Below, piece after piece: positions 52,660 to 52,893 of a stretch of DNA of 64,000 nucleotides (within the stretch, counting starts at the first letter, position 1; each line of letters begins with the position of its first letter). The position numbers and the translations under genes are program-made. Source of the stretch: Alcaligenes faecalis. Lineage in GTDB: Bacteria; Pseudomonadota; Gammaproteobacteria; Burkholderiales; Burkholderiaceae_B. Below the pieces are notes generated by a model. The model saw nothing but the letters and a program-made list of their open reading frames with translations. It was not told the DNA's origin and did no database searches. The stretch covers positions 2,604,001 to 2,668,000 of the forward strand of contig NZ_CP031012.1 of NCBI RefSeq assembly GCF_009497775.1. Direction: 5' to 3'.

Positions 52660-52665
52660 GGATGC

Positions 52666-52693
52666 ATTATATCGAAAATTACCGATATGCCAA
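52666..52693 (-). promoter_or_regulatory. arsR promoter with embedded operator, leaderless start
   Basis: Minus strand: TTGGCA (52688-52693), 16-nt spacer, TATAAT (52666-52671). The inverted repeat ATATCG-N8-CGATAT (52669-52688) fills the spacer and enters the -10, the classic place for an autorepressor. Transcription would start about at the ATG itself. Confidence 0.78.
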
Positions 52694-52711
52694 TGTAGTA
52701 AATTTATTTTT

Positions 52712-52791
52712 AACAACAACAACAACAACAACAACAACAACAACAACAACAACAACAACAACAACAACAACAACAACAACAACAACAACAA
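52712..52791. repeat. (AAC)26 perfect trinucleotide repeat tract
   Basis: 26 uninterrupted AAC units (78 nt) plus AA, reading GTT on the transcribed side toward arsR. It begins 19 nt upstream of the arsR -35 element and lies between the TetR gene stop and the arsR promoter. No translated gene contains it, so length changes would alter DNA upstream of the promoter without shifting a frame. This is far longer than expected by chance in a bacterial chromosome. Confidence 0.97.
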
Positions 52792-52893
52792 TGATCGCGG
52801 TTAGGTGCAGAGGTGGTCTTCCAAGACCTGCAGGCATCCCAAAAGAAACACCAGCCCCCTTGCGCTCATCATTAAAGCTACTTATCAAGCCAC

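Follow-up and report, generated by a model that had tools for sequence, protein, structure and literature searches.

A long AAC repeat upstream of a leaderless arsR promoter in Alcaligenes faecalis, probably a nearly neutral microsatellite grown by slippage

In Neisseria meningitidis, the operators of NadR flank the (TAAA)n repeat of nadA and their spacing varies with repeat length, with IHF binding at the repeat edge, as described in the available portion of the source (PMC2791445). The (GAA)n tracts of vlhA genes are variable between orthologs according to an excerpt of PMC6258824. We analysed a stretch of 64,000 nucleotides of Alcaligenes faecalis (assembly GCF_009497775.1, contig NZ_CP031012.1, positions 2,604,001 to 2,668,000 of the forward strand; hereafter the window, in whose own numbering positions are given), where a perfect AAC tract lies upstream of arsR, a gene coding for an ArsR/SmtB-type repressor. 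Autoregulated ArsR/SmtB operons combine an HTH_5 repressor with an operator located in its own promoter. The arsR locus is a case of a promoter-side repeat that mimics a phase-variation switch, whereas comparative anatomy points elsewhere: with a probability of roughly 0.73, we consider the tract to be a slippage-grown, nearly neutral microsatellite with little bearing on the arsR promoter. Under this model, replication slippage, the presumed origin of the tract, would have expanded a triplet repeat between genes, on the upstream border of a segment carrying arsR, a dehydrogenase gene (adh) and a monooxygenase-like gene (abm). Control of arsR would be independent of the tract, ArsR binding to an operator, O1, in its own leaderless promoter and to a second operator, O2, before the dehydrogenase gene, and tract length would be without effect on expression.

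The AAC tract and the arsR promoter

Tandem Repeats Finder delimited the tract at 52712-52791 (plus strand) as a perfect trinucleotide array of period 3, with 26.7 copies and 100% matches, in line with the perfect 26-unit repeat announced by the original prediction; on the arsR strand it reads (GTT)n. It lies between tetR, whose stop ends at 52894, and arsR, whose ATG occupies 52657-52659 on the minus strand, and it spans about -53 to -132 relative to this ATG. Homopolymers excluded, the only other triplet run of at least four units in the 64 kb has 12 nt (53565-53576), so that chance cannot account for a perfect tract of 80 nt. The tract had been placed outside any gene, which is correct for the ATG start; mechanically, the arsR frame extends across it as TTG codons, giving an open reading frame (ORF) of 144 aa. 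Since the unit is 3 nt, a change in length cannot shift the reading frame.

The predicted arsR promoter is composed, on the minus strand, of a -35 box TTGGCA (52688-52693), a 16-nt spacer and a -10 box TATAAT (52666-52671), with 6 nt up to the ATG, a leaderless layout. A promoter scan by itself is weak evidence (one found versus 1.1 expected in shuffles), and the promoter call is therefore based on comparison with relatives, the best 80 of 217 arsR relatives having been taken and all 80 examined. The distance between the -10 box and the ATG is 6 nt in 64 of them, 7 in 13 and 8 in 2, one row being misplaced by the script. The -35 box is TTGACA in 76/80 relatives, and the TTGGCA form of the window is absent among their forms. 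Between the two boxes, a palindrome TATCG-N5..9-CGATA gave a strict match in 77/80 relatives; in the window, it corresponds to the predicted ArsR operator O1, TATCGGTAATTTTCGATA (52670-52687, minus strand), inside the core promoter. The predicted second operator O2, CATCGATAATTCCCGATA (52324-52341, minus strand), which has one half-site mismatch, is located in the gap between arsR and adh. A strict second operator 3' of arsR was present in 63/80 relatives, each also with O1; in 59 of the 63 it lies between +317 and +354. Two elements of the original prediction, the leaderless promoter and the pair of ArsR operators, thus found support through their conservation in the relatives. The predicted anatomy, with a leaderless start, autoregulation via O1, and O2 before the dehydrogenase gene, is well supported. 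The two-operator leaderless arsR-dehydrogenase unit (loci L036-L115) is conserved across many proteobacterial genera, and some relatives, e.g. L038, L080 and L083, show a further operator-like site downstream.

Within 300 nt upstream of arsR, 0/80 relatives showed a repeat, the full 300 nt being present in 80/80; the scan, for repeats of at least 12 nt with at least four copies of a 1-6 nt unit, detected the window's own tract. The tract is not part of the conserved arsR promoter unit.

Slippage might, alternatively, alter the length of the tract and hence the expression of arsR-adh-abm, by rotating the DNA upstream, or by way of an upstream activator, of DNA shape or of a distal alpha-CTD contact at about -53. 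This proposal is unlikely, although it has more in its favour than the other alternatives: the tract is just upstream of a near-consensus promoter (18 nt separate it from the -35 box), the lengths of orthologous AAC tracts vary between species, and related mechanisms operate in nadA, sabA and vlhA, as far as the available parts of the sources describe them. The geometry argues against it. O1 and O2 do not flank the tract and are both on one side of it, so that its length can neither change their spacing nor tune the loop between two operators suggested by the original prediction. The 18-nt stretch opens, on the arsR strand, with a putative A/T-rich UP-like box, AAAAATAAATTT (52700-52711, minus strand), located between the tract and the -35 box, and a shift of an UP element by the tract, also suggested, does not match this order. 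No ArsR-operator-like site was found beyond the tract in 52700-54000 with up to 3 mismatches allowed in the 10 half-site positions. The versions with looping or with an UP element thus fail on position, both operators and the UP-like box being on the promoter side. The 102 nt from the tract to the tetR stop (52792-52893, 52% GC) contain a single A-run of 4, and only their last 11 nt were matched in another genus genome (G009; up to 27 candidates scored per genome); sites for proteins other than ArsR are conceivable there. Considering also that the repeat is missing in 80/80 relatives and that sibling tracts stand at unrelated sites, six of the nine others in the same genome being between convergent genes, the idea that the tract tunes arsR was not supported. 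Read-through, DNA shape or an activator bound upstream would possibly be compatible with this evidence.

Read-through would imply that tetR transcripts cross (GUU)26 into arsR, tract length altering mRNA decay, or that a TTG-started ArsR carries a poly-Leu extension. Both genes have the same orientation, the tract continues the arsR frame, and one consensus scan revealed no terminator-like site between tetR and arsR. The leaderless start at the ATG is however conserved in relatives, and no poly-Leu ArsR was retrieved by a word-based search on 90% clusters, in which a rare form could be missed: among 104 candidates, 2 matched with E<=0.001, and their N-terminal extensions were unrelated. For this last reason, a poly-Leu-extended ArsR was rejected as a readout of the unit number in other strains, and we regard read-through as quite improbable.

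Sibling tracts and length variation in the genus

The genus was sampled with ten genomes, one per species, including the genome of the window (G000). AAC tracts of at least 8 units are present in 9/10 of these genomes (G000 included) versus 2/51 other relatives, and tracts of at least 10 units in 8/10 versus 12/190 other family genomes, this family comparison of tract abundance covering the AAC class. The ten genomes contain at least 21 AAC tracts of at least 8 units, one of which (G003:C1:3339933) was left out of close inspection. In G000, where seven of the ten trinucleotide classes were searched (ACG, AGG and CCG being left out), 11 tracts of at least 8 units were found at ten sites (AAC 4, AAG 3, AGC 2, ACC 2). 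Six of these sites are flanked by convergent genes and three by tandem ones (arsR, L182 and L186), while the tenth lies within a long ORF. Ten of these tracts belong to the nine sites other than arsR, among which are the six between convergent gene ends, where promoter tuning is least expected. The twelve distinct AAC sites inspected in the genus comprised six convergent, three tandem and two divergent ones and one inside a 532-aa ORF, which we take to be nadB.

These contexts come from a simple gene caller whose labels were corrected by reading of the ORFs. The caller had labelled tracts as coding via short repeat-filled ORFs at arsR, L195, L204, L208, L210 and L213; labels were corrected at arsR, L203 (wrong neighbour) and L204 in G000, and at L208, L210 and L213 in the genus. 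Tracts at L185, L198, L199 and L214 were accepted as coding, the first three from long ORFs alone, and L212 has no context row, its tract being shorter than 8 units. As some flanking ORFs are without Pfam match, a few gene orientations are deduced from ORFs alone.

The sequences directly flanking the sibling tracts at other sites are unrelated, and the arsR locus has no flank in common with the sibling loci, the other sites having different neighbours. Against a plain absence of common flanks counts the fact that three of the twelve AAC sites carry the same 177-nt dispersed element in their locus. No RNA element was detected beside the tracts, ten loci giving no Rfam match up to E 0.01. Like intergenic microsatellites, the arsR tract is a perfect array of directly repeated triplets located outside genes, and its siblings stand at unrelated sites. 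A repeat-binding protein active only at certain tract lengths, as for vlhA, seems highly improbable here and has the least to recommend it among the alternatives. In its favour, the arsR repeat is a trinucleotide one that begins near -53, much as the GAA repeat of Mycoplasma stands some 40 nt away from the start site; nevertheless, the M. gallisepticum tract, in the part of the source available, belongs to a promoter family with conserved flanks, whereas at arsR only one promoter is concerned and the immediate flanks of the sibling tracts are unrelated.

Six AAC sites are common to two to five species, and the lengths differ in 6/6; at the site of the receptor pair, for instance, the tracts count 15.0, 22.3, 20.3, 25.3 and 23.3 units. 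In three of the six groups, the lengths are less sure, since one assembly has N letters next to the tract (that of G003 for two groups, that of G004 for the third). These differences between species fit slippage and give indirect support, from orthologous AAC sites in sister species, to the high length mutability that had been claimed for the arsR tract; the arsR tract itself occurs in one species only. We also considered that its unit number, which comes from one assembly, could be an assembly artefact, N letters being present beside some such tracts in assemblies G003 and G004. The genome of the window is nevertheless a single contig, and eight further species of the genus also have AAC tracts of at least 8 units, which makes an artefact improbable, if slightly less so than read-through.

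A broader reading would be that the genus keeps a genome-wide set of long trinucleotide tracts as length-variable tuning elements, some of them retained at one intergenic site in several species, and that the arsR tract is a promoter-side member, its length setting the basal level of an electrophile-response operon and generating mixed populations. We hold this to be unlikely, a shade more probable than an assembly artefact and a shade less so than tuning of the arsR promoter alone.

A nearly neutral, slippage-grown tract remains the favoured explanation, and several observations weigh against it. The arsR tract is the longest single-unit trinucleotide tract in its genome among the seven classes searched, and it starts 53 nt from the arsR start, only the L201 tract (49 nt, before a 97-aa ORF) being nearer to a gene start among the tracts whose gene context was read. 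With TTGGCA in place of the usual TTGACA, the promoter may depend more strongly on the DNA upstream. At one AAG site, G000 and G002 have equal lengths of 11.3 units (14.3 in G007). Tract sites persist across species, for which neutrality must invoke slow loss. Finally, mutS is intact in 10/10 genus genomes, which offers no driver of tract growth.

Mismatch-repair loss was not supported as the cause of growth, mutS being over the cut-off and without stops in all ten genomes (mutL was not searched); mutS loss therefore does not explain the abundance of tracts. G003 has two equal-scoring mutS copies (G003:C1:1234518-1237106 and 1284246-1286834), maybe an assembly duplication, and N letters beside two of its tracts. 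Literature searches found no paper that combines Alcaligenes with phase variation and simple sequence repeats, or with microsatellites and slipped-strand mispairing. The genus-wide abundance of long trinucleotide tracts despite intact mutS is a more interesting fact than the arsR tract, and is offered as a lead, both for strain typing and for the question of why such tracts grow.

The longest of the tracts inspected is a compound one in G002 (L206:2990-3224), located between convergent ORFs and made up of 39.3 ACT units and, after them, 37.7 AAC units. The dispersed 177-nt element is strongly self-complementary and gave 29 matches with E<=0.001 in G000, some partial and none in the window; it has no Rfam match. 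Copies were located, for example, at G000:C1:3307749-3307925, at 3490085-3490261 with 3490538-3490715 inverted, at L034:1188-1364 and 1695-1871, and at L124:1122-1298 and 1848-2023. The L034 copy folds as RNA at about -95 to -100 kcal/mol, and several copies form close inverted pairs. Three of the ten tract sites of G000 are about 140-205 nt from a copy: the tracts at G000:C1:388446, 1490946 and 3308130 are near copies at 388615, at 1491134 and 1491429, and at 3307749 and 3308475, respectively. By rough reckoning this proximity exceeds expectation, and the link may be indirect because both tracts and element favour intergenic DNA.

The arsR-adh-abm segment and its edges

Of the ten genomes of the genus, G000 alone yielded a full-length arsR of the window type, the other matches being partial, with 29-37% identity. 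The segment 51012-52894, which holds most of abm, adh, arsR, the promoter, the tract and the 102 nt beyond, is absent from the sister species G004 and G007, where 47 and 50 bp are found instead. On the tetR side, homology begins at 52883-52909 in all six genus genomes in which this side matches, and in the family relative G017, whose ArsR is 85% identical, homology covers 51346-52694 and ends just upstream of the promoter. From these boundaries of homology and absence, the alignments place the tract at the upstream edge of a species-specific arsR-adh-abm segment. This segment was probably acquired, a gain being presumed rather than a loss in the sister species.

The left end of the segment (50983-51041) lies in the final codons of a gene of the RidA family (Pfam Ribonuc_L-PSP), whose end in the window differs from that in G004 and G007, and also inside abm on the opposite strand. 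Regarding a plasmid origin, 55 of 72,556 plasmid records matched the segment at 60-80% identity, none over 80% of the query, and no donor was found in this search; 17 records matched the tetR side, the 10 listed ones covering only the tetR/maoC part. Mobile-element end repeats were sought in 50900-53000, which contained no inverted repeats of at least 12 nt and three short two-copy direct families.

The arsR gene (52357-52659, minus strand) codes for a protein of 100 aa which scored 35.7 bits against Pfam HTH_5 (cut-off 22) and 66.8 against NCBIfam NF033788 (cut-off 55). The following gene, adh (51297-52301, minus strand, mechanical ORF start), codes for a zinc-type dehydrogenase or quinone reductase-like protein with Pfam ADH_N and ADH_zinc_N domains. 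This protein did not reach the cut-off of any NCBIfam model listed, its score with the PIG3 quinone oxidoreductase model being 217.1 bits for a cut-off of 296.8, so that the quinone/electrophile defence role proposed for the operon was not demonstrated. The third gene, abm (50983-51300, minus strand), codes for an ABM-domain monooxygenase-like protein (Pfam ABM 38.2 bits, cut-off 23.1). A literature search on a unit of ArsR, zinc-dependent alcohol dehydrogenase and antibiotic biosynthesis monooxygenase found nothing.

Comparison with known systems

As in nadA, the arsR locus has a simple repeat upstream of a promoter whose repressor, of a ligand-responsive type, has at least two operators. Unlike nadA, as the available text describes it, both arsR operators are downstream of the tract, none being found on its other side, and the repeat is missing in the 80 relatives. 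The T-tract rheostat of Helicobacter pylori sabA (PMC4081817, in part) is similar in that its repeat is near the -35 box and outside any gene; the sabA repeat, however, is located between UP-like elements and the core promoter, whereas at arsR the predicted order is reversed, the UP-like box lying between tract and core. With the (GAA)n of Mycoplasma gallisepticum vlhA, the arsR tract shares a trinucleotide unit upstream of a promoter; in the excerpt available (PMC6258824), the vlhA repeat is common to the promoters of a multigene family with conserved flanks, while arsR has a lone promoter and no such paralogs sharing its tract.

The locus has the make-up of autoregulated ArsR/SmtB operons, with its HTH_5 repressor and a predicted palindromic operator over the repressor's own promoter. 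It differs from typical ones by the leaderless start and the second operator after arsR, found together in 63/80 relatives; this deeply conserved leaderless two-operator promoter is a compact sensor worth study. As for the tract, it resembles ordinary bacterial microsatellites, being a perfect short-unit repeat of the kind reported as indel hotspots in the accessible part of PMC12699852, and it departs from them in that long AAC tracts are commoner in this genus than in most of the family.
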